Of a stretch of DNA of 64,000 bases, positions 1 through 11,336 are shown piece after piece. The notes beneath the pieces were generated by a model. It saw only the letters and a list, made by a program, of their open reading frames with translations. It searched no databases and was not told the DNA's origin. The DNA is from Roseateles oligotrophus (GTDB lineage: Bacteria; Pseudomonadota; Gammaproteobacteria; Burkholderiales; Burkholderiaceae_C), in assembly GCF_025717515.1 (NCBI RefSeq), contig NZ_JAJIRN010000013.1, positions 62,001-126,000 of the forward strand. The letters are read 5' to 3'. A program made the position numbers and the translations under genes. The first letter of the stretch is position 1; each line of letters begins with the position of its first letter.

Positions 1-1
1 G

Positions 2-310
2 TTTGGCTTCGTCGTCTTCCTGATGCCGGTGTGCGCCACCATCATCTATCTCGGCACCCCCTTCTTCTTGCAAGCCTTGCGATCGGGCGAGATATCGACC
101 AATGCCGGCGGCCTGATCCTGTGGCCTGTCTATGCCTTGATCCCGCTCGGTTTTGGGCTGTTGATGCTGCAAGGCTTCAGCGAGTTGATCAAGCGCCTGG
201 CATTTCTGCAGGGGCTGATTGACGACCCGACGCTGAAGCCGGTTGCCAAGACGGCCGAAGAAGAGCTGGCCGAGGCGATCCGCTTGGCCGCCGAACAAAA
301 GAAAAACTAA
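2..310 (+). CDS. dctQ: TRAP transporter small permease (DctQ), 5' partial
   Basis: This is the C-terminal part of the small, four-helix membrane subunit of a tripartite ATP-independent periplasmic (TRAP) transporter; the gene begins before the window. The visible part has a hydrophobic segment with an IYLGTPFF stretch, a second one reading LILWPVYALIPLGFGLLML, and a charged cytoplasmic tail rich in Glu, Ala and Lys. It ends 12 bases before the large permease gene, which has a purine-rich ribosome site (AAGGGAG) in the gap, so the two are co-transcribed. The family assignment rests mainly on this linkage and on the helix pattern. The binding protein is not in the visible upstream sequence; a candidate lies at 8671-9753. 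Confidence 0.85.
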   Translation, partial: FGFVVFLMPVCATIIYLGTPFFLQALRSGEISTNAGGLILWPVYALIPLGFGLLMLQGFSELIKRLAFLQGLIDDPTLKPVAKTAEEELAEAIRLAAEQKKN

Positions 311-322
311 GGGAGCCCGGGA

Positions 323-2077
323 ATGGAATTTTTAACCCAAAATTTGGCCCCCATCATGTTCGCGGGACTGATCGTCTTCTTGCTGATGGGCTTTCCGGTG
401 GCATTCAGCCTCGGCGCCTGCGGCCTGTTCTTTGGTTTCGTCGGCATTGAACTGAATGTCTTGCCGGCTTCGCTGATGCAAGCACTGCCACTGCGTATCT
501 TCGGCATCATGAAGAATGACACGCTGCTGGCCATCCCCTTCTTCACCTTGATGGGTTTGATACTCGAGCGCTCTGGCATGGCGGAGGACTTGCTGGACAC
601 CATCGGGCAGTTGTTCGGCCCCATCCGCGGAGGCCTGGCTTTCGCGGTGATTTTTGTCGGCGCCTTGCTGGCCGCCACCACCGGCGTGGTCGCCGCCTCG
701 GTGATCTCGATGGGCTTGATCTCGCTGCCCATCATGCTGCGTTATGGCTACGACAGACGGATTGCTTCCGGGGTGATTGCGGCCTCCGGCACCTTGGCTC
801 AAATCATTCCGCCATCCTTGGTCTTGATCATCTTGGCCGACCAATTGGGCAAGAGCGTTGGCGATATGTACAAGGGCGCCTTTCTGCCGGGCTTCATCCT
901 GACCGGCCTCTACGTTGCCTACATCATCGGGATTGCCATTTTCAAACCCAAATGGGTCCCGGCCTTGCCACTGGAAGCGCGGTCCATCCGAGAAAGCAAT
1001 GGCGATTCCGGCCTGCGCTCCCTGGGCCTATTGACCCTCGCCTCGCTTGCAATTTCCGTCTACTTCGCTCAGAACTACGCCCAAATCACCAGTTACTTCA
1101 AGGGTGAGGTCATCACCAGCATGCCCACCGATGAAACCATTGTGGTGGCGATGTCGGTCGGCGTTGGCGTAGCCTTCATTGGCTCGGTGGTGAACAAGCT
1201 GCTGGGTCTGAACCTGTTGTCAAAGATGGCCGAGCAGGTGACCTTTGTGTTGATCCCGCCGCTCGCATTGATCTTCCTGGTATTGGGAACGATTTTTCTG
1301 GGCATCGCCACGCCGACAGAAGGTGGCGCGATGGGCGCTTTGGGTGCTTTCCTGATGGCCGCAGCGCGCGGTCGAATCAGCTACAAACTGCTGACTCAAG
1401 CTCTGACCTCAACCACCAAGCTGTCTTGCTTTGTGGTCTTTATCTTGGTCGGCTCGACCATCTTCAGCCTGTCATTTCAAGGCGTGGATGGCCCGAAATG
1501 GGTTGAGCATCTATTGAGCAGCCTGCCCGGGGGGCAGATCGGATTCCTGATCTTCGTGAATATCCTGATCTTTGTGCTGGCCTTCTTCCTCGACTTCTTC
1601 GAGTTGTCCTTCATCGTCGTGCCCTTGCTGGCGCCGGTGGCCGAAAAACTGGGCATCGACCTGATTTGGTTCGGCGTGCTCTTGGGCGTCAATATGCAAA
1701 CCTCCTTCATGCATCCGCCGTTTGGCTTCGCACTGTTCTACCTGCGCAGCGTGGCTCCCTTGACGGAATACATCGACAAGCTCACCGGCAAGAAAATTGC
1801 CCCCGTCACGACCGGGCAAATCTACTGGGGTGCCGTCCCATTTGTGATCATTCAGGTCATCATGGTCGGCTTGATCATTGCCTTCCCCAATCTGGTATCG
1901 GGCGGCTTAGGCAAGGTGGCCGAGGTAGACAGCAGCAATGTCGTGATCGAAGCGCAACCGCAGTCGGACAAGGCCGATGCCACCGAGATGGACGGCAACA
2001 AGCTGTTCGGCCCGGCCGACCCACCGGCCTCGGCGGTAGATCCCTTGGAAGCTGCAGCACAGGACAGCAAGAAGTAG
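323..2077 (+). CDS. dctM: TRAP transporter large permease (DctM)
   Basis: The 584-residue large membrane subunit of a TRAP transporter moves a substrate (typically an organic or keto acid) into the cytoplasm using the sodium gradient. The N-terminus (MGFPVAFSLG, LLAIPFFTLMGLILERSGMA, and the TTGVVAASVISMG loop) matches the DctM family. It is longer than the usual ~430 residues: there is an inserted region around residues 215-270 and a hydrophilic tail of about 60 residues after the last helix. Long DctM proteins of this kind occur in the systems that use TakP-like binding proteins (family knowledge), which fits the DctP at 8671-9753. A strong terminator follows at 2101-2133. Confidence 0.93.
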   Translation: MEFLTQNLAPIMFAGLIVFLLMGFPVAFSLGACGLFFGFVGIELNVLPASLMQALPLRIFGIMKNDTLLAIPFFTLMGLILERSGMAEDLLDTIGQLFGPIRGGLAFAVIFVGALLAATTGVVAASVISMGLISLPIMLRYGYDRRIASGVIAASGTLAQIIPPSLVLIILADQLGKSVGDMYKGAFLPGFILTGLYVAYIIGIAIFKPKWVPALPLEARSIRESNGDSGLRSLGLLTLASLAISVYFAQNYAQITSYFKGEVITSMPTDETIVVAMSVGVGVAFIGSVVNKLLGLNLLSKMAEQVTFVLIPPLALIFLVLGTIFLGIATPTEGGAMGALGAFLMAAARGRISYKLLTQALTSTTKLSCFVVFILVGSTIFSLSFQGVDGPKWVEHLLSSLPGGQIGFLIFVNILIFVLAFFLDFFELSFIVVPLLAPVAEKLGIDLIWFGVLLGVNMQTSFMHPPFGFALFYLRSVAPLTEYIDKLTGKKIAPVTTGQIYWGAVPFVIIQVIMVGLIIAFPNLVSGGLGKVAEVDSSNVVIEAQPQSDKADATEMDGNKLFGPADPPASAVDPLEAAAQDSKK

Positions 2078-2100
2078 TTCCGGGAAGGCGTTGACTCACA

Positions 2101-2133
2101 AAAAGGCCGCAGCAGACTGCGGCCTTTTTTTTT
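2101..2133 (+). terminator. Rho-independent terminator after dctQM
   Basis: A perfect 12-bp stem (2101-2112 with 2117-2128), four-base loop CAGA, followed by a run of T. It lies 23 bases after the dctM stop and closes the TRAP operon. Confidence 0.9.
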
Positions 2134-2317
2134 CGCCTGAGTGACACGCGAACAAGCTAGCCCAGAGTGCGCCATGGGCATTGGCGACCAGCCCTTGATT
2201 CAATACTGAGCGCTAAGGGAATCTGACATACTGAAACCCTCAAGCTCTTTCAACTCACCGCTCACCAAACAAGCCCCATCCCTTCGATTGCTTTTCGGGT
2301 TTAAGGTTGACTAGTTC

Positions 2318-5008
2318 ATGACGAATTCAGTCGCTCACATGAGCGGCCACGAGGCATCCGTCCCTGGACCGCAACCCCTGCGCCAACGCTTGGTATTGCG
2401 CCTCCAAAGCCTGTCGATCGCGCTGATCGTCAGTGTGCTGTTGAGCACGGTAATCACCGTCGTGCTCAGCATATTCGCCTGGTTTTTCTATCAATCCGAA
2501 CGCGCAGCACGGATCGAGCAGTTGCACCGCACGATTGAACTACAGGCCAAACAACTCGTCATTGCCTTGCAGCAGCCTGTATGGGGTTACGACGAGACAC
2601 AAATTCATAGCCTGTTGCTGAGCGGGATGAACAACGTCAACCTGCTGGGGATAGAGGTCAGAAGCCAGATCAAAACGGGCCAGGAGCAAGGCCAGCGCCT
2701 CTACCAGATTGGGCGCGATGAGCAGGGTATCGCCCGGCCAGACGCGGCCCTCGCCCCAACGCCGGAGCTATTGACCGAACAGCACCCCATCCTGATTGAT
2801 GGCAAGGAAATCGCCAAAGTCAGCCTCTTTGCGTCCTACCGCTTTGTGCATCAGGAATTGCGGGAACGCCGCAACGGCATCTTCGCAGGCATCATCGTGC
2901 TGGATCTGACCCTGGTTGGCGCCGTCTACCTTTTACTCCGCTCGCTGATGCTCTTGCCGATCAAGCGTATCGAGCTGTTCGCCGCAGCGATTCGCTCCGG
3001 TGCAGGCGAAACCGACAGACGCTCCGAGCCCATCTTCTTCGGCGAATTAAAAGCCCTTGACCAATCGATTCGGGCCATGACCACCCTGCTGGATAGGCGG
3101 TTGCAGGAAACTCGCGCGGTCGAGGAGCGGCTGAAGATGGCCACGCGGGCGGCCAGTCTGGGGATTTGGGACTGGAATATCCAGACCAATGTGCAGCTCT
3201 GGGATGACGCGATGTACTCGATGTACCGTCTGTCGCGCACCAGCTTTGATGGCAGCTACCAGTCCTGGTTGGACACCTTGCTGCCCGAAGATCGCCAAGC
3301 GACGATGGCCGCTTTCGACAAGGCCTTGGCCGGTGACTATGAGTACGAAGGCGAATTCCGTATCACCCGGCCCGACGGCTCGCTACGCCATCTGCGCAGC
3401 GCGGCGCTGATCTTCCGCGATGCCGACGGCAGGGCGATTCGCATGGTCGGCGTCAGCCAAGACATCAGCGAGCGCAAGACCGCCGAGATCGAACTGGAAC
3501 AGCACCGCCATCACTTGCAAGACTTGGTGTTGGCTCGCACCAGCGAGTTGTCGGTGGCGATGGACGCTGCATATGCCGCCAACCGCGCCAAGAGCATTTT
3601 CCTCGCCACCATGAGCCACGAGTTGCGTACCCCCTTGAACTCGGTCATCGGTTTCTCACGCATGATGGCCGAATCAAGATCGATGTCGCCCGATGACAAG
3701 CGCAATCTCGAACTCATCCATCTCTCCGGCAAACATCTATTGCACCTGATCAATGACATTCTGGAACTCTCCAAAATCGAAGCCGGACGCACCCAGCTGC
3801 GGCCGACTCTGACCGGACTGCCGCAAATACTCCGCGAAGTCTGCGATCTGATAGGAGTGCGGGCCCGTGAAAAAGGCCTGACGCTTAGCCTGAGAACCGA
3901 GGGCCTCCCGGCGCACATCCGTATCGACCCCGACAAGCTCCGTCAGGTGCTGTTGAACTTGTTGTCCAACGCCGTCAAATTTGTTGAACAGGGCTCGATC
4001 GAATTGAGCGTGAGCTTCAGCCCAGCGGGCGATGGCCATGGCCTGCTGAAATTTGACGTTATTGATACCGGTTTCGGCATTTCTGCAGCGGACATCGAGC
4101 ACATCTTCGAACCCTTTGTGCAAGTCCAAGGCCCGCATAGCAGCGAAGGCACCGGGCTAGGCCTGTCCATTTCGCGCCAGTTCGTGCGCCTGATGGGCGG
4201 CGAGCTGAGCGTGCAATCGCAAGCAGGTCTGGGGTCAACCTTCAGTTTTACCTTGCCGGTCGAGCTGGGCGAGCTGAATCCGGGCCCCGCGCCGGCCGCA
4301 TGGCCACTCAACTCGCTGGACTCGCCGACCGCCCTCACCCTCGCCAGGCCGCCGCATTTCGGACAAGGCAGGCGTGTGTTGCTGGTCGATGATCTCGATG
4401 AAGGACGGCGCCTGTTGCGCGCCATTCTGGAACCACTGGACTTCAAACTGAGCGAGGCCGCCGATGGCCGGCAGGCACTTGAGGCCGTCGCTTTGGAATG
4501 CCCGGACCTCGTCTTGATGGACCTGCACATGCCGGGCATGAACGGCCTGGAAGTGATCCGCGAAATCCGCCGCGATGCGCAACTGCAGGCTCAGCCCCGC
4601 ATCGTGATGGTGACCGCTACGGCCTTCGATGAACAGCGCATGAATGCCTTGGCCGCAGGGGCCGATGACTTTTTAGTCAAGCCGCTCGACCAGGACGCAC
4701 TGTTCGCGGTTTTGGAGGACCAGTTAGGCCTGCAAGCAAGCTCGAACGAACACCAACTGATTGCGAGCAGCCGGCGCAGCCTAAGCTCCGGCGACTTGGC
4801 GAGGCTGGCGCCGGAGCAACGCCAGCAGCTGCGGCGAGGCCTGCAAGAACTCGACCGGGCACAGGTGGACGGCCTGCTCCAAGAGTTGGCGGCCCGAAGC
4901 CCAGCCGATGCGGATCTGTCTTCCATGATCAGTGAAATGCTGGCCCACTATCAGCACCCCGAACTCTGCGCGCTGATCGATGCGTTGGAACAACAAGGCA
5001 CTGCATGA
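2318..5008 (+). CDS. Membrane hybrid histidine kinase with PAS and receiver domains
   Basis: This 896-residue inner-membrane sensor kinase has transmembrane helices at about residues 32-56 and 188-208 enclosing a ~130-residue periplasmic sensor, a linker, a PAS domain (about 265-390, ending DISERK), a HisKA dimerisation domain with phosphoacceptor H434 in FLATMSHELRTPLN, and a HATPase domain (NLLSNAVKF, DTGFGIS, GTGLGLSIS). A receiver domain follows with phosphoacceptor D735 in LVLMDLHMPG. The last ~100 residues are helical but lack an obvious HPt histidine. Its last four bases overlap the next gene (ATGA), which encodes another receiver-kinase, so the two are made together and probably exchange phosphate. 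The ligand is unknown. No DNA-binding output domain is present. Confidence 0.93.
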   Translation: MTNSVAHMSGHEASVPGPQPLRQRLVLRLQSLSIALIVSVLLSTVITVVLSIFAWFFYQSERAARIEQLHRTIELQAKQLVIALQQPVWGYDETQIHSLLLSGMNNVNLLGIEVRSQIKTGQEQGQRLYQIGRDEQGIARPDAALAPTPELLTEQHPILIDGKEIAKVSLFASYRFVHQELRERRNGIFAGIIVLDLTLVGAVYLLLRSLMLLPIKRIELFAAAIRSGAGETDRRSEPIFFGELKALDQSIRAMTTLLDRRLQETRAVEERLKMATRAASLGIWDWNIQTNVQLWDDAMYSMYRLSRTSFDGSYQSWLDTLLPEDRQATMAAFDKALAGDYEYEGEFRITRPDGSLRHLRSAALIFRDADGRAIRMVGVSQDISERKTAEIELEQHRHHLQDLVLARTSELSVAMDAAYAANRAKSIFLATMSHELRTPLNSVIGFSRMMAESRSMSPDDKRNLELIHLSGKHLLHLINDILELSKIEAGRTQLRPTLTGLPQILREVCDLIGVRAREKGLTLSLRTEGLPAHIRIDPDKLRQVLLNLLSNAVKFVEQGSIELSVSFSPAGDGHGLLKFDVIDTGFGISAADIEHIFEPFVQVQGPHSSEGTGLGLSISRQFVRLMGGELSVQSQAGLGSTFSFTLPVELGELNPGPAPAAWPLNSLDSPTALTLARPPHFGQGRRVLLVDDLDEGRRLLRAILEPLDFKLSEAADGRQALEAVALECPDLVLMDLHMPGMNGLEVIREIRRDAQLQAQPRIVMVTATAFDEQRMNALAAGADDFLVKPLDQDALFAVLEDQLGLQASSNEHQLIASSRRSLSSGDLARLAPEQRQQLRRGLQELDRAQVDGLLQELAARSPADADLSSMISEMLAHYQHPELCALIDALEQQGTA

Positions 5009-6267
5009 CGGATACAAATCGAAGCTCCGAGGGCGAGGTGCTGGTGGTCGAGGACACTCAGGCATCACTCAAACTACTGTCTGACCTGCTACGCGCGGCC
5101 GGCTACCAAGTACGCGAAGCTCCCAATGGCGAATTGGCCCTGTGGAGTGCCAACGCCCGCCCACCGGAGCTGATCCTGCTTGATGTCAGGATGCCAGGCA
5201 TAGACGGGTTGGAGGTCTGCCGCCGCCTGAAGCAAAACCCCAGCCTCTGCGAGGTTCCGGTGCTCTTTCTCTCCGCTCAGCATGATGCCGAGGACAAGCT
5301 TGCCGGATTCAAGGCAGGCGCCGTCGACTTCATTGCCAAACCCTACCAGGCCGAGGAGGTGTTGGCTCGTACCCGCACCCACCTGCAACTGGCCCGCACC
5401 CGCAAGGCCTTGCAGAGCCGCAATCAGGAACTCGGTACCGCACTGCAAGCCCTGAACGAAGCTCGCGAAGAAGCCCGCCGGACCGAAAGCATGGCTGCCC
5501 TCGGGTCGATGGTGGCGGGCATTGCCCATGAGATGAACACCCCGATCGGCAACAGTTTGCTGGTTGCCAGTGCGCTGGCCGGCCAAGCCCGTGATATGGC
5601 CCGCGATGTGGCCCGCCTCATGAGCGAGCAACAGCCGCCGGCGTCGACGCCTATTCCAAAAGCTTTCGTGGACTTCATTGCCGACACCCAAGACGGCTGC
5701 AGCCTGGTATTGCGAAACCTTGAGCGTTCCGCCCAGTTGATCGCCACCTTCAAAAAACTGGCTGCATCACCGCTCAATCTGCGGCGCAAGAATTTCGAAT
5801 TGGATCACTACCTGGTCGAGTTGCTGGACGCAAAGCAGAGCCAACTCGAGAAGCATCACGTCAGCCTTCGCTTGAATCTGCAGCCAGGATTGCATATGGA
5901 CAGCTACCCGGAAGCGCTGGGCGAGGTCATCACAGAATTGCTCGGCAACGCAATTTTTCACGCGTTCGGCTCGGCTGGCGGGCAGATTGAAATCTCGGCC
6001 CTAACCAGCGATGAGATCGACCCGCTCAGTCCACTGAGCATCCTTGTTCGCGACAACGGCGCCGGCATTGCCAGCGAGCATCTTGATCGTGTATTCGTCC
6101 CCTTCTTCACCACCAAGATAGGTCAGGGACGTAACGGCCTGGGCCTCAACATCGTGCAAAACCTGCTTAGAAACGTGTTGGGCGGAGGCATTAGGGTAGA
6201 AGCCTCCATGGGGCAAGGGAGTTGCTTCGCGATGCAAATCCCGCGTCAAGCGCCACCAGTTGGCTAG
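5005..6267 (+). CDS. Receiver domain-histidine kinase fusion (soluble)
   Basis: A 420-residue cytoplasmic protein with an N-terminal receiver domain (phosphoacceptor D60 in LILLDVRMPG, conserved Lys in FIAKPY), a coiled-coil linker rich in Ala, Arg and Glu (about 125-165), a HisKA-like segment with H175 in GIAHEMNTPIGN, and a C-terminal ATPase domain (LGNAIFHAF, RDNGAGIAS, GRNGLGLNIVQNLL). No membrane helix is seen. The start overlaps the end of the hybrid kinase gene by four bases. The H-E-M-N-T-P form of the phosphoacceptor motif is typical of kinases that follow a receiver. It is likely the downstream relay partner of the preceding kinase; the final output regulator is not encoded here. 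Confidence 0.9.
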   Translation: MTDTNRSSEGEVLVVEDTQASLKLLSDLLRAAGYQVREAPNGELALWSANARPPELILLDVRMPGIDGLEVCRRLKQNPSLCEVPVLFLSAQHDAEDKLAGFKAGAVDFIAKPYQAEEVLARTRTHLQLARTRKALQSRNQELGTALQALNEAREEARRTESMAALGSMVAGIAHEMNTPIGNSLLVASALAGQARDMARDVARLMSEQQPPASTPIPKAFVDFIADTQDGCSLVLRNLERSAQLIATFKKLAASPLNLRRKNFELDHYLVELLDAKQSQLEKHHVSLRLNLQPGLHMDSYPEALGEVITELLGNAIFHAFGSAGGQIEISALTSDEIDPLSPLSILVRDNGAGIASEHLDRVFVPFFTTKIGQGRNGLGLNIVQNLLRNVLGGGIRVEASMGQGSCFAMQIPRQAPPVG

Positions 6268-6372
6268 TCCTTCGGCTAATGAGCTAGCAAGCTTTTGACC
6301 GCAAGCCTGAGCACTTTCGTTTCGTGCAAAAACGCAGCAGGTCGCAGCCTCCGGAAAGCCTTGCTCCATTTG

Positions 6373-7140
6373 CTAGCGAGTCAGTTTTTTCTCCAAACTC
6401 TCTATTCGCTTCGTTCGGAACAGTTCTTCGTAGCCCTTGTTGAACTCGTTCATCAACTCCTGTGCATTCGGAGCTTTCTTGGAAACAACAAAAAAGATCG
6501 GCACGCTCCAGAACATCTGATTTTGAATCTCCAGTTGCCGGGCTGTTTCCAAGTCAAGCTCGGTCGCGATTAAAAACCGAGCGACCGACGCCTCCAATGG
6601 AAATAGATCAATTCTCTTCAGTGCGAGCATTTTCAGCCCACTGACATCGCCAACAGTAATTTCGGATGCAATCAGCTTTTGCGACTGCATGTCCGCAAGC
6701 GCCTGAGAGTAGAAATTACCTCGCGTAAAACCGATTCGCTTGTGCGCGAGATCAGCGAGTGAGGCCCACGCAACTGGTTTATCGATGTGTTGAACAAACA
6801 CCATGCGATAAACATAGATCGGCTTGCTGGAGTACAGCAGTGCCGCATCTCGTTCATCGTTGTGAGCCCAGCCGAAACTTGCCTCGTAAGTTCCGTTCAT
6901 GGTCCCGACGATGGCCCGATTATTGGGAACCCATTCGATCGAAATATCCAAATTCCGGGCTTTGAGCGCCTCGGCCACAATCTCGGTCAGAGCGCCGCCA
7001 CCAAGCGCTGCTTGCACTTTGAAAGGTGGGTATTCGCCAATAGCGACGCGCACCGTTTCAGCGCGCGTCGGCGTTGCGAATACGAACGAGGCCAGGAACA
7101 GCATTGATCCGAGCCAGTGCCAGCGTGTGTTTACTGCCAT
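6373..7140 (-). CDS. Periplasmic solute-binding protein family 3 (orphan)
   Basis: A 255-residue exported protein with a Sec signal peptide (hydrophobic core LGSMLFLASFVFA, cleavage expected after TRA) followed by the start of a family-3 binding domain (VRVAIGEYPPFKV). Such proteins bind amino acids for ABC uptake or act as ligand presenters to sensor kinases. No ABC permease or ATPase is nearby, whereas a sensor kinase pair ends about 100 bases away on the opposite strand, so a sensory role is possible (inference). The start ATG at 7138-7140 lacks a clear Shine-Dalgarno sequence. The bases upstream (7141-7268) are markedly A+T-rich relative to the rest of the window. Confidence 0.8.
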   Translation of the reverse strand: MAVNTRWHWLGSMLFLASFVFATPTRAETVRVAIGEYPPFKVQAALGGGALTEIVAEALKARNLDISIEWVPNNRAIVGTMNGTYEASFGWAHNDERDAALLYSSKPIYVYRMVFVQHIDKPVAWASLADLAHKRIGFTRGNFYSQALADMQSQKLIASEITVGDVSGLKMLALKRIDLFPLEASVARFLIATELDLETARQLEIQNQMFWSVPIFFVVSKKAPNAQELMNEFNKGYEELFRTKRIESLEKKLTR

Positions 7141-7268
7141 GAAATTTCAATTAAGCGCCAAAAATCCAAAATCAGAAAAAAATAAACAAAATCAAAAAAA
7201 TATTCCCTACATTCAGAAAACACTCACTCAGCCATTAAATTAAAAACAGATCCGTAATCCGGCAAATA

Positions 7269-8306
7269 TCAGAACAAGTGACGAACACCAAAATTAAGCA
7301 ATCGCTCCGTCGCGCCGACTTTATAGGCCAACTTTCCGGCGTTTGAATTTGATTCATTTGCGACACGAGCCAAGGACGTGTAGAAATTTGTACGCTTGGA
7401 CAAATAGTAGGTATAGCCCACACCGAACTGGCGCCCTCTTCCCTCAGCTAAGCCGTTATCAACTCCAGTGACCGAAGCGATAACATCACCTGAACCAGTG
7501 GGTATCGTCAAACCAATCATCGACATAGTCAAATCAGTTTTTCCATTCGGCAAAAAATTGTCATTCGCGGTCACCGATCCGTAGGCTGCGGCAATTTTTG
7601 CCAGACCAAAATCATATGCGCCGCCTATGAAATAATATTCCAACTGATTGAGAAGCAGGTCTTTCTCGCCGTTGTAGGCGAGCACTGCATAAAACGGACC
7701 CTTGGTGTAACTAGCCGACAAGCCGAGTTGGCTCATTTTTCCAGCACTACCGGTTTGCTCGCCAAAAGTATAGGCAACCGTCCCAACCAGACCACCAACA
7801 TTACTGCTAATGTAGTTAATCGTATTATCTGTACGCGGATTTGTGACGTAAAAAGGCCGCCCCAAGCCTGACGCACTGGTACTCTCACCCGCCGTGCCGC
7901 CGATAATACTCGTCCTGAATGGATCAACCGAATCAACGGCCGTGTGGAGTGGTTTATTTTGACGGCCAAGCCTAAGAGCCCCAAAACCGCCCTCCAGACC
8001 GACCCATACGCCGCGACCAAAAGCCAAACCTCCCTGGGCGGCCTTGCCTGTGTCGGCATTCAAACCCATTTCGAGTTGAAAAATGACAGACAAACCGCCA
8101 CCTATATTCTCTGAACCCTTGAAACCCAGGCGAGAACCGGATTGCACGCCACTGTCTATAGTGGTCTTGGTCCCCGGCCCACCGGCGCCATTATTTTCAT
8201 GATTGATCGCCATATCAAGCACACCGTAGACCGTGACGGCAGACTGGGCCTGCGCAAGGCCTCCGACGAAAAACATGAATGCCAATGTCAGGCCTTGTTT
8301 GAGCAT
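7269..8306 (-). CDS. General porin, Gram-negative trimeric type
   Basis: A 345-residue outer-membrane porin of the family common in Burkholderiales. It has a signal peptide (MLKQGLTLAFMFFVGGLAQA), the mature start QSAVTVYGVLDM, the GSRLGFKGSENIGGGL segment, loop-3-like FGALRLGRQ, and a C-terminal strand ending in Phe (LNFGVRHLF), as needed for BAM-mediated insertion. The start at 8304-8306 was chosen because the signal peptide begins there and GGAG lies 7 bases upstream; an in-frame start further upstream (8375) adds an unlikely N-terminus. Its codon use looks less G+C-rich than neighbouring housekeeping genes, which is common for porins. The substrate is not predictable. Confidence 0.92.
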   Translation of the reverse strand: MLKQGLTLAFMFFVGGLAQAQSAVTVYGVLDMAINHENNGAGGPGTKTTIDSGVQSGSRLGFKGSENIGGGLSVIFQLEMGLNADTGKAAQGGLAFGRGVWVGLEGGFGALRLGRQNKPLHTAVDSVDPFRTSIIGGTAGESTSASGLGRPFYVTNPRTDNTINYISSNVGGLVGTVAYTFGEQTGSAGKMSQLGLSASYTKGPFYAVLAYNGEKDLLLNQLEYYFIGGAYDFGLAKIAAAYGSVTANDNFLPNGKTDLTMSMIGLTIPTGSGDVIASVTGVDNGLAEGRGRQFGVGYTYYLSKRTNFYTSLARVANESNSNAGKLAYKVGATERLLNFGVRHLF

Positions 8307-8607
8307 CTTTAGTCTCCAACGAAACAACTGAAAGCTGTCCAGATCCGCTTTGGCAATACACGAATAGAGGCCCATGAGGCCACCATCGCCAACTATTGCT
8401 CGTCGAACTCAACCTAACAAGCTAGGCCAGATGCGCAAGGTCGGGGAGGGAAATTTCATGTCTGTCAGGGAGCGAGTATTCCGCGTGCTTGCCAGGAGCA
8501 CAAGAAAAATGTTTTCACCAAACAATGCAGGCCGCGCCCTGGCAAACCGATTCAAAACCGGCGATTCAACATCAACCTGCCAGGGTCTTGGATGTGGTTC
8601 GAGCTCA
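8307..8607. other. Non-coding gap upstream of the porin
   Basis: About 300 bases between the porin start and the terminator of the dctP gene. It should hold the porin promoter on the minus strand, but I could not pick a convincing -35/-10 pair. An open frame here on the plus strand (8374-8670) has no recognisable domain, no ribosome site and a low-complexity composition; I do not call it a gene. Confidence 0.5.
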
Positions 8608-8640
8608 AAAAAAACCCGTCAGGCCAGCCGACGGGTTTTC
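8607..8640 (-). terminator. Rho-independent terminator after dctP
   Basis: A nine-base perfect stem (8611-8619 with 8631-8639) whose loop contains a further GGC/GCC pairing. Read on the minus strand it is followed by a T run (A run at 8607-8614). It lies about 30 bases past the dctP stop. Confidence 0.85.
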
Positions 8641-8670
8641 GTGAATCCAGCCAGATGCTTGGGCGTTTGA

Positions 8671-9753
8671 TCAGAGCTTTTGCGCCTGCATGAAGTCATC
8701 AAAACCGGCTTCCGCAAAACGGAACCAGAGGTTTTGATCGCGACGGAAGGCCGAGTAGTCTTCGTAGACCTTCTTCCAGTTCGGATTCTTGGCCGACAAC
8801 TCACTGTAGATGGCCATCGATTCCTTGAAGGCCGCGTCCATCACGTCCTTCGGGAAGCGGAACAGCTTGGTGCCGCCTTGCACCAGTTGCCGCAGAGCCG
8901 GCGGGTTACGGGCATCGTATTTGGCCTGCATATCGTTGTGCGCCACGGCCGCCGCAGCCTCAACAATCGCCTTGTACTCGGGCGTCAAGGCCTCGAAGGA
9001 CTTGGTGTTGATGAAGAAGTCCAGTTGTGGGCCGCCCTCCCACCAGCCAGGGTAGTAGTAGTTGGGCGCCACTTTATTGAAGCCCAGCTTTTGATCGTCA
9101 TAAGGACCGACCCATTCGGCCGCATCGATCGTGCCCTTTTCCAACGCCTGATAAATCTCGCCGCCCGGGATGTTCTGCGGCACGCCGCCCATGCGCTCCA
9201 AGACGCGGCCGGCGAAACCGCCGATACGCATCTTCATGCCCTTGATATCGGCCACGCTCTTGACTTCCTTGCGATACCAGCCGCCCATTTGCGCACCGGT
9301 ATTGCCGCCGAGGAAGTTGATGATGTTGTACTGCTTGTAGAACTCGCGCATCAGCTTCAAGCCGTTGCCTTCAAGCATCCAGGCCGTCATCTGGCGGCTG
9401 TTGAGGCCAAACGGAATGGCGCAACCAATCGCGAAGGTTTCATCCTTGCCGTGGAAATAGTAAGGCGCCGTATGGGCCATTTCCACCGTACCTTCTTTGA
9501 CCGCATCAACCACGCCGAAGGCGGGCATCAACTCGCCACCTGCATGGGTGGATATCTGGAATTTACCCCCCGTCATTTCGCCAACCTTCTTTGCGAAGAC
9601 ATCGGCAGCACCAAAAATGGTATCTAGGGACTTGGGAAAGCTCGAGGCGAGACGCCAGCGGATATTCGCCTGGGCATGCACGACAGCCGGTGCGACACCG
9701 GCGGCAAACACGCCGGCCAGACCGGCCTGTCGAACAAAGTTTCTACGCTCCAT
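8671..9753 (-). CDS. dctP: TRAP transporter solute-binding protein (DctP/TakP-like)
   Basis: A 360-residue periplasmic binding protein of the TRAP family. The N-terminus MERRNFVRQAG...AVVHAQ is a signal peptide with an RR pair near the start, of the kind often predicted as Tat-dependent in this family. Motifs such as GGEIYQALEKGTIDAAEWVGPYDD and YYYPGWWEGG are characteristic of the alpha-keto-acid (TakP) branch: the Arg in MKMRIGGFAGRV and the EW pair would contact the carboxylate (family knowledge). The start at 9751-9753 was chosen because AGGAG lies 8 bases upstream and the signal peptide begins there. No dctQM genes adjoin it; those at 2-2077 are the nearest. It is transcribed alone, ending in a terminator at 8607-8640. 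Confidence 0.92.
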   Translation of the reverse strand: MERRNFVRQAGLAGVFAAGVAPAVVHAQANIRWRLASSFPKSLDTIFGAADVFAKKVGEMTGGKFQISTHAGGELMPAFGVVDAVKEGTVEMAHTAPYYFHGKDETFAIGCAIPFGLNSRQMTAWMLEGNGLKLMREFYKQYNIINFLGGNTGAQMGGWYRKEVKSVADIKGMKMRIGGFAGRVLERMGGVPQNIPGGEIYQALEKGTIDAAEWVGPYDDQKLGFNKVAPNYYYPGWWEGGPQLDFFINTKSFEALTPEYKAIVEAAAAVAHNDMQAKYDARNPPALRQLVQGGTKLFRFPKDVMDAAFKESMAIYSELSAKNPNWKKVYEDYSAFRRDQNLWFRFAEAGFDDFMQAQKL

Positions 9754-9910: not shown

Positions 9911-9931
9911 AAAACCGGCCTTAGCTGCCGG
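9911..9931 (-). terminator. Possible terminator overlapping the pmbA stop codon
   Basis: On the minus strand CCGGC and GCCGG form a short GC-rich stem around the pmbA stop codon, followed by only four T. The short T tract makes this a weak call. Confidence 0.35.
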
Positions 9932-11336
9932 CCAACTTCATCCTTGAGATCAAGACCGAACCTATCGTTTTGCCACCCATGGTGTAGCGGTCGCAGCCGA
10001 TGCCGATGATGTTCTGGAACATCTCGCTCAGGTTGCCGGCGATGGTGACTTCATGGACGGGATAGGCAATTTCGCCGTCCTCAACCCAATAGCCACTGGC
10101 GCCACGCGAATAGTCGCCGTTGACATAGTTGACGCCCTGCCCCATCAACTCGGTCACGAACAGGCCCCGACCCAGACGCTTAAGCATGGTTGTTAGCTTG
10201 TCGCCGGGCGCCGTCAGGCGGCTGCTCATCTGCAGATTGTGCGAGCCGCCGGCATGACCGGTGGTGCGCATCCCGAGCTTGCGGGCCGAGTAGGTGGAAA
10301 GAAAGTAACCCTGCAACACACCGGCCTCGACCACGCTGCGCGCCTTGGTCGTGACGCCCTCATCATCAAAGGGCGAACTGCCCTTGCCCTTGAGCTCGTG
10401 CGGGTTCTCGTTGATGTCGATATGCGAGGCCAAGACGCTCTTGCCCAGACTGTCTAACAAGAAACTTGCACGGCGGTACAGCGCACCGCCGCTGGTGGCC
10501 TGCACGACCGCGCCCAGCAAACCGGCGGCGACCGTGCTCTCGAACAAAACCGGCACCTCGGCGGTGGCAACTCGGCGCGACTTCAGTCGCGACAAAGCCC
10601 GTTCGGCGGCGTAGCGGCCGATGCTCTCCGGCGTGGCCAGATCGGCCGCGCTGCGCATCGAGCTGTACCAGGAGTCGCGCTGCATCTGCGCGCCCCGCCC
10701 GGCGATCGGGGCGACCGAAATCGAGTGGCGCGAGCTGGCGTAACCTCCGCGAAAACCACGGCTATTGCCCATGTAGAAATGCGATTGCTGGGCCGACACC
10801 GCCGCGCCCTCGCTGTTTGCGATGCGCTTGTCGGTGGCAAAAGCGGCCGCCTCGCAGCGCAGGGCGATCTCGGCCGCCGCTTGCGCGTCGATCGCCCAGG
10901 GGTGGAACAAATCAAGCTCGGGCCGCGCCGACGCGTCGAGCGATAGGTCCTCCACATCGGGCAGGCCGGCGACCGGGTCTTCCGCCGTGAAGCGAGCGAT
11001 ATCAAAGGCCGCGCGGACGGTGTCCTGCAAGGCCTTGCGCGAGAAGTCCGAGGTGCTGGCATTACCGCGGCGCTGGCCGACATAGACCGAGATGCCCAGC
11101 GACTTGTCGCGGTTGCGCTCGACGTTTTCGATCTCGCCCATGCGGGTCGAGACCGACAGGCCGCAGCCCTCCGACACCTCGGCACCGGCGTCCGACGCGC
11201 CGAGCTGTTTGGCCTCGGCCAGCACGTCCTCGATCAACTGCTGGAATTGTTCGGCCCGGTAGGCAAAGCCGCTGACAGATTCATGCGTGCCATGCGATGC
11301 GGTAGGAGGCGAGGAAGACTTTGCTTGCTTTGACAT
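9921..11336 (-). CDS. pmbA: PmbA/TldE-type metalloprotease subunit
   Basis: A 471-residue member of the TldD/PmbA (TldE) family. In enterobacteria TldE forms a heterodimer with TldD that processes microcin B17 and degrades unfolded peptides and the CcdA antitoxin (family knowledge); TldE itself lacks the zinc-binding motif. Family features visible are the N-terminal DAGAEVSEGCGLSVSTR region, SPFDDEGVTTKARSVVEAGVLQGY, and the C-terminal ELMGQGVNYVNGDYSRGASGYWVEDGEIAYPVHEVTIAGNL-type block (read here only as short matches). It is divergent from darP, an arrangement common in Burkholderiales. No tldD is in the window. Confidence 0.95.
   Translation of the reverse strand: MSKQAKSSSPPTASHGTHESVSGFAYRAEQFQQLIEDVLAEAKQLGASDAGAEVSEGCGLSVSTRMGEIENVERNRDKSLGISVYVGQRRGNASTSDFSRKALQDTVRAAFDIARFTAEDPVAGLPDVEDLSLDASARPELDLFHPWAIDAQAAAEIALRCEAAAFATDKRIANSEGAAVSAQQSHFYMGNSRGFRGGYASSRHSISVAPIAGRGAQMQRDSWYSSMRSAADLATPESIGRYAAERALSRLKSRRVATAEVPVLFESTVAAGLLGAVVQATSGGALYRRASFLLDSLGKSVLASHIDINENPHELKGKGSSPFDDEGVTTKARSVVEAGVLQGYFLSTYSARKLGMRTTGHAGGSHNLQMSSRLTAPGDKLTTMLKRLGRGLFVTELMGQGVNYVNGDYSRGASGYWVEDGEIAYPVHEVTIAGNLSEMFQNIIGIGCDRYTMGGKTIGSVLISRMKLAGS

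Follow-up and report, generated by a model that had tools for sequence, protein, structure and literature searches.

Why should the gene for the binding protein of a transporter be found 6.6 kb away from the genes for the membrane subunits, on the other strand and beyond four genes of other kinds? Such an arrangement is seen at the left edge of a 64,000-nt stretch of Roseateles oligotrophus DNA (assembly GCF_025717515.1, contig NZ_JAJIRN010000013.1), here called the window, which comprises bases 62001-126000 of a 128-kb contig. The window begins with dctQ and dctM, encoding the membrane subunits of a tripartite ATP-independent periplasmic (TRAP) transporter, and dctP, encoding a TakP-like binding protein, lies opposite, with 6,593 nt from the dctM stop to the dctP stop. 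The locus very probably encodes a single TRAP transporter, of TakP type, whose convergent and ancestrally adjacent units have been split by about 6.5 kb with four unrelated genes. This reading is based on gene content, the count of subunits in the genome, synteny, the position of the block between two terminators and the ligand residues of DctP. The features of the locus are given below by window position, with G150 denoting the nearest relative.

1..310, forward strand: 3' part of dctQ, the small TRAP membrane subunit (PF04290, 70.1 bits, cut-off 28.3)
323..2077, forward strand: dctM, the large TRAP membrane subunit, long form, 584 residues (PF06808, 317.2 bits over the entire profile, cut-off 23.8)
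2105..2124, forward strand: intrinsic terminator of dctQM, core stem (fold -21.3 kcal/mol, z -4.49; counterpart in the G150 spacer)
2151..2172, forward strand: left copy of an imperfect 22-nt direct repeat (20 of 22 columns equal to 8416-8436)
2318..5008, forward strand: probably inserted gene for a membrane hybrid histidine kinase (PAS, HisKA, HATPase and receiver, by Pfam)
5005..6267, forward strand: probably inserted gene for a receiver-HATPase_c protein (by Pfam; 4-nt overlap with the kinase gene)
6373..7140, reverse strand: probably inserted gene for a solute-binding protein of SBP_bac_3 type, a weak match (PF00497, 23.6 bits, below the 26.4 cut-off)
7269..8375, reverse strand: probably inserted gene for an outer-membrane porin, Porin_4 (PF13609, 171 bits)
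8416..8436, forward strand: right copy of the imperfect direct repeat, pairing with 2151..2172
8615..8635, reverse strand: intrinsic terminator of dctP, core stem (fold -21.3 kcal/mol, z -3.45; counterpart in G150)
8671..9753, reverse strand: dctP, TakP-like substrate-binding protein, 360 residues (PF03480, 208.4 bits, cut-off 23.4)
9921..11336, reverse strand: pmbA-like gene, the right neighbour of dctP in relatives (adjoining dctP in 14 whole genus loci)

The sequence-only reading of this DNA had placed dctQM on the forward strand at the left edge and a TakP-like dctP on the reverse strand 6.6 kb off, and these gene coordinates and names hold. The kinase pair, binding protein and porin that it described between them were likewise confirmed, the binding protein under the Pfam cut-off. 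All three TRAP subunits are present, each above its Pfam cut-off. The complete dctQ can be read in the contig (L005:11718-12311, 197 residues), with a GTG start 284 nt upstream of the window. No dctP had been visible near dctQM, and the upstream DNA agrees: the open frame directly upstream of dctQ is one that we take to be GatB/YqeY-like, and at E <= 0.001 the contig gives no DctP match apart from the one in the window. A partner dctP lying upstream was thus rejected.

Counts across the genome point the same way. The Pfam families of DctP, DctQ and DctM are each matched four times, and the other three sets are contiguous and single-stranded, in the order P-Q-M on contigs C54 and C12 and Q-M-P on C53. 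By elimination, the fourth P and the fourth QM therefore belong together. There is no spare receptor or membrane set of the DctP, DctQ or DctM families in the genome (TAXI-type receptors were not searched for), and a second DctP-type receptor pairing with this QM was rejected on that account.

Synteny within the genus was investigated in 18 genomes, the window's own included. In 16 of the 17 congeners, a match to dctM and one to dctP lie tail to tail on one contig, their ends separated by 14-243 nt; in the seventeenth (G163, 79% complete) DctP was found and no DctM at 1e-30. Next to dctP in G158 there is only a contig-end fragment of dctM. Loci were fetched for 15 congeners (G159 and G163 left out), and 14 of these are whole. 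All 14 share the order HI0933, yqeY, dctQ, dctM, then dctP, pmbA, yjgA by tblastn, with yqeY flanking the dctQ side and pmbA the dctP side; the names HI0933, yqeY, pmbA and yjgA are our presumed assignments. The synteny comparison proposed by the sequence-only reading thus finds dctM and dctP adjacent in nearly all relatives. Together with the 4/4/4 count, this adjacency supports the view that the DctP, DctQ and DctM of the locus belong together, in a genetic and not a physical sense. As an observation apart, the DctM match of G154 (L099) consists of two overlapping pieces (query 1-418 and 416-573), as if frame-shifted, and the cause may lie in the gene or in the assembly.

The boundaries of the intervening block are best seen against G150, whose DctP is 100% identical after rounding and whose DctM is 94% identical, with about 0.15 kb between the genes. 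Its DctP is not quite the same letter for letter, because the match scores 827.2 against 829.2 bits. The G150 spacer contains only two facing terminators, and the window retains both at equivalent places with the ~6.5-kb block between them. Alignment to G150 and G156 breaks at 2036-2041 and picks up at 8664-8671. A consensus terminator scan missed both terminators (2105-2124 and 8615-8635), probably since the stems run into the T tract; both were revealed by folding. In the 17 congeners, block DNA gave nothing longer than 221 nt among the matches listed (at most 16 candidates scored per genome), and the listed matches, 45-221 nt long, are scattered over other places. Gain of the ~6.5 kb by this lineage is the most likely course, as loss from every congener would be less simple. 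Therefore the sequence-only suggestion of one transporter rearranged by insertion agrees with both the tail-to-tail order in 16 of 17 congeners and the terminators kept around the insert. The GC content of the kinase-pair genes is 0.600 and 0.595, that of the binding protein gene 0.517 and that of the porin gene 0.505, with 0.617 for the window; because the block genes differ in this way, the block may have arrived in more than one piece.

Relatives of the four genes were sought more widely. At 1e-150, none of the 398 further genomes of the family (399 in all) gave a match to the hybrid kinase, a weak negative with only two candidates per genome scored among the matches shown, and the best segments of its named relatives are 28-42% identical (80 kept of 340, the window's own genome possibly omitted). 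Against plasmids, the receiver-HATPase protein finds generic kinases only, in at least 5000 records that are all below 60% identity, the ten best at 36-39%. The SBP_bac_3-like protein has relatives at 1e-20 in 13 other genomes of the 399, at 27-32% identity, and matches the PDB weakly (best E 0.0021). The porin was matched at 1e-70 in none of the remaining 199 genomes of a 200-genome family set, with at most 10 candidates scored per genome shown.

The junction of dctM and dctP is interrupted elsewhere too. Seven other family genomes carry inserts there, mostly of unrelated genes (L094 4140-9135; L201 4690-11040; L202 1120-8690; L203 3955-13430; L204 4940-7110; L205 4035-6285; L206 3655-5440), and 20 of the 27 genes called in them were scanned against Pfam. 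The G116 insert holds a 2CSK_N-type kinase, an NMT1-type binding protein, an ATP-binding cassette (ABC) ATPase, a permease and a receiver protein, the last recognized by eye. MarR and a resistance-nodulation-division (RND) pump, with outer-membrane efflux and AcrB-type genes, are found in G129, an EAL protein in G145, an EamA-type protein in G082 and a protein with weak ferredoxin matches in G011. G027 has proton-antiporter or NADH-dehydrogenase-like genes, and G097 an Na+/H+ antiporter, TctA/TctC and sugar-type enzymes. A kinase is thus found in one of the seven inserts among the scanned genes. An eighth case, G128, has 45 kb between dctM and dctP and was fetched in part. Because the seven genomes hold other, mostly unrelated genes at the junction, the sensory content of the window's block looks incidental, and the sensory character that the sequence-only reading had stressed does not hold up as a shared trait. 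A conserved sensory block was also considered and rejected, given only short DNA matches among those listed in the 17 congeners and a negative, if weak, kinase search. G116, the sole insert that resembles the window's block, counts against incidental content. An insertion into the spacer of two convergent units, each closed by its terminator, would do no harm, and this suffices to explain the picture.

Could the four genes nevertheless belong with the transporter? It has been considered that the kinase pair, binding protein and porin sense the substrate and control dctP and dctQM. The block genes are near neighbours of the TRAP genes here; in G116, too, dctM is separated from dctP by genes for a histidine kinase, a receiver protein, and a binding protein accompanied by ABC transporter genes; and two-component control has been described beside a related transporter type (tripartite tricarboxylate transporter, TTT; bctDE) in a review (PMC5812351). 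However, DctP is matched in all 17 congeners, yet their listed matches include no block DNA beyond the short pieces noted above, and the scanned genes of the other six inserts are of quite different kinds. Neither protein of the kinase pair has a Pfam match to a DNA-binding domain, and the G116 kinase has a 2CSK_N domain whereas the window kinase is without one. Such a regulon is quite improbable. Somewhat less probable again is that the two halves are unrelated, QM using another receptor and DctP being a lone orphan. P and QM lie far apart in G143 and G058, and dctP stands beside pmbA with no QM match in 19.5 kb in G028 and G096; however, the absence of a spare set (TAXI-type receptors not searched for) and the same two genes standing side by side in the nearest relatives make this very unlikely here. 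That the block was wrongly joined into the contig during assembly is the least probable of the three. It would fit a block unseen among the congener matches listed and the lower GC of two of its genes (0.505-0.517 against 0.617), but the block is flanked by the two facing terminators, lies inside a 128-kb contig of a genome rated 100% complete with 0.05% contamination, and has similar-sized counterparts at the same junction in other genomes.

The reading of one transporter split by insertion was also compared with the family at large. In a sample of 150 genomes, DctM was matched at 1e-100 in 89 and DctP at 1e-60 in 133. The 94 family DctM loci (the window's own excluded) were tabulated against DctP rows among the matches listed, and at 59 of them a listed DctP stands tail to tail, less than 3 kb away in 55 and at 6.4, 7.7, 9.5 and 45.2 kb in the others. 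Several observations weigh against the split-transporter reading. At the thresholds used, DctP occurs in 133 of the 150 genomes and a close DctM in only 89. The remaining DctM loci have a classical P upstream on the same strand (9 of 94), a listed P on the same contig 0.26-4.0 Mb off (5 of 94), a listed P on another contig (11 of 94) or none listed (10 of 94). The small chance of a misassembly belongs on the same side. Further, the direct repeat at 2151/8416 is marginal, with 6 of 500 shuffles reaching its score, and it provides no clear mechanism of insertion. Its 10-base core is found nowhere else in the 64-kb window and is absent from loci L077-L109; a clear target-site duplication was rejected on these two grounds, the marginal repeat and the core not found in L077-L109.

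The course of events proposed for the locus is as follows. The two convergent transcription units, dctP and dctQM, would have been adjacent ancestrally, and the four-gene block of about 6.5 kb would have entered the spacer between the facing terminators in this lineage. Both units appear to be whole still, each retaining its upstream region and its terminator. Exported DctP, a probable dimer, would bind an alpha-keto acid and Na+ and hand the alpha-keto acid to DctQM for import with sodium. In this chain, we infer the substrate, the dimer, the coupling to sodium and the continued joint working of the two halves.

The functional part of this proposal comes from likeness to TakP. DctP matches TakP (PDB 2hzk) with E 2e-129 over residues 1-358 of 360, and the alignment extends to TakP 359, taking in the swapped-helix C-terminal region. 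The TakP report names Tyr100, Gln156, Arg177, Glu214, Trp215 and Glu240 as the TakP residues for Na+ and pyruvate (PMC1839085). All six are kept in the window's DctP as Tyr99, Gln155, Arg176, Glu213, Trp214 and Glu239, and they are complete in 25 of 26 compared DctPs, the other having Phe at the Trp position. Given this conservation, a small alpha-keto acid taken up with sodium is the best guess for the substrate. TakP (SmoM) of Rhodobacter sphaeroides (PDB 2hzk/2hzl) shares with DctP the full-length match, an RR-type signal peptide (by eye in DctP) and the six ligand residues. The receptor gene of R. sphaeroides is directly followed by homologues of dctQ and dctM (PMC1839085), whereas here P is convergent with QM and 6.6 kb off. 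Contiguous dctPQM transporters likewise have the same three subunits, in contrast to the two convergent units parted by four inserted genes. With TTT orphan receptors, the Bug proteins of Bordetella (PMC5812351), DctP has in common that its gene stands with no membrane genes right beside it. Unlike these, the window's DctP is a TRAP receptor with membrane genes 6.6 kb away, and because those genes are also adjacent in 16 of 17 congeners, its dctP is not a true orphan. No description of the convergent dctP/dctQM arrangement was met in a limited search of the literature. Overall, the case is one of ordinary genome change in a TRAP transporter, a common sort of bacterial importer. The insertion explains the odd gap, and the four intervening genes are not to be read as transporter parts; an insertion between convergent genes is in itself of little consequence.

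A side finding worth more than the insertion concerns the membrane pair. Comparison was made of 26 loci, 14 from the genus and 12 from other genera, which were chosen and not random (G154, G158, G028, G096, G143 and G058 left out). In 14 of them DctM is long, and the segment that corresponds to residues 218-312 of the window's DctM measures 84-95 residues; the other 12 have a short DctM of 504-535 residues, in which this segment measures 20 residues (about 75 lacking). The long DctM had been taken as a mark of a TakP-like partner, an argument that is weakened because a TakP-like DctP also adjoins the short DctM in all 12 of the latter loci. The short class within the genus (8 of 14 members) has a DctM 52-55%, a DctQ 44-49% and a DctP 81-89% identical to the window's. 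Since DctP stays so similar beside such different membrane subunits, replacement of dctQM beside a retained dctP seems the simplest reading; old paralogues could instead have been differentially lost. The DctP tree unites 11 of the 12 short-class rows and the long-class G119 in a single clade of 12 rows (support 95/91), and short inner branches join this clade to the one that includes the window and consists of six long-class rows; the remaining short-class row, G066, is placed outside the 12. In the DctM tree, very long branches separate the two classes. At the yqeY-pmbA locus, the short class is found at L077, L078 and L101-L106, as against L097, L098, L100 and the window.

TakP-type receptor and membrane parts may thus be exchangeable modules, a near-unchanged receptor being served by two very different DctQM pairs at one syntenic locus of one genus; this is put forward tentatively, at a little under an even chance. 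If true, a single receptor surface might fit membrane partners with only about half of their residues in common. Within the genus, TakP-like receptors that resemble each other occur naturally next to DctQM of the long or of the short class, and such pairs could show how strictly a TRAP receptor is matched to its partner.

Other arrangements of these genes were seen in single relatives. G143 (L085, L086) has a close dctP and dctQM on different contigs, and in G058 (L087, L088) a close dctP lies ~4 Mb from dctQM in contig coordinates; neither genome has a DctP match at 1e-8 within the fetched 19.5 kb around dctQM. In G028 (L080) and G096 (L082), dctP adjoins pmbA, and the 19.5 kb fetched from each contains neither a dctQ nor a dctM match; these lone dctP genes are possible candidates for true orphan receptors. 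Tandem TakP-like dctP copies are found in several relatives (L079, L096, G034, G077, G053, G134, G047, G099, G044, G132, G085, G138 and G097).

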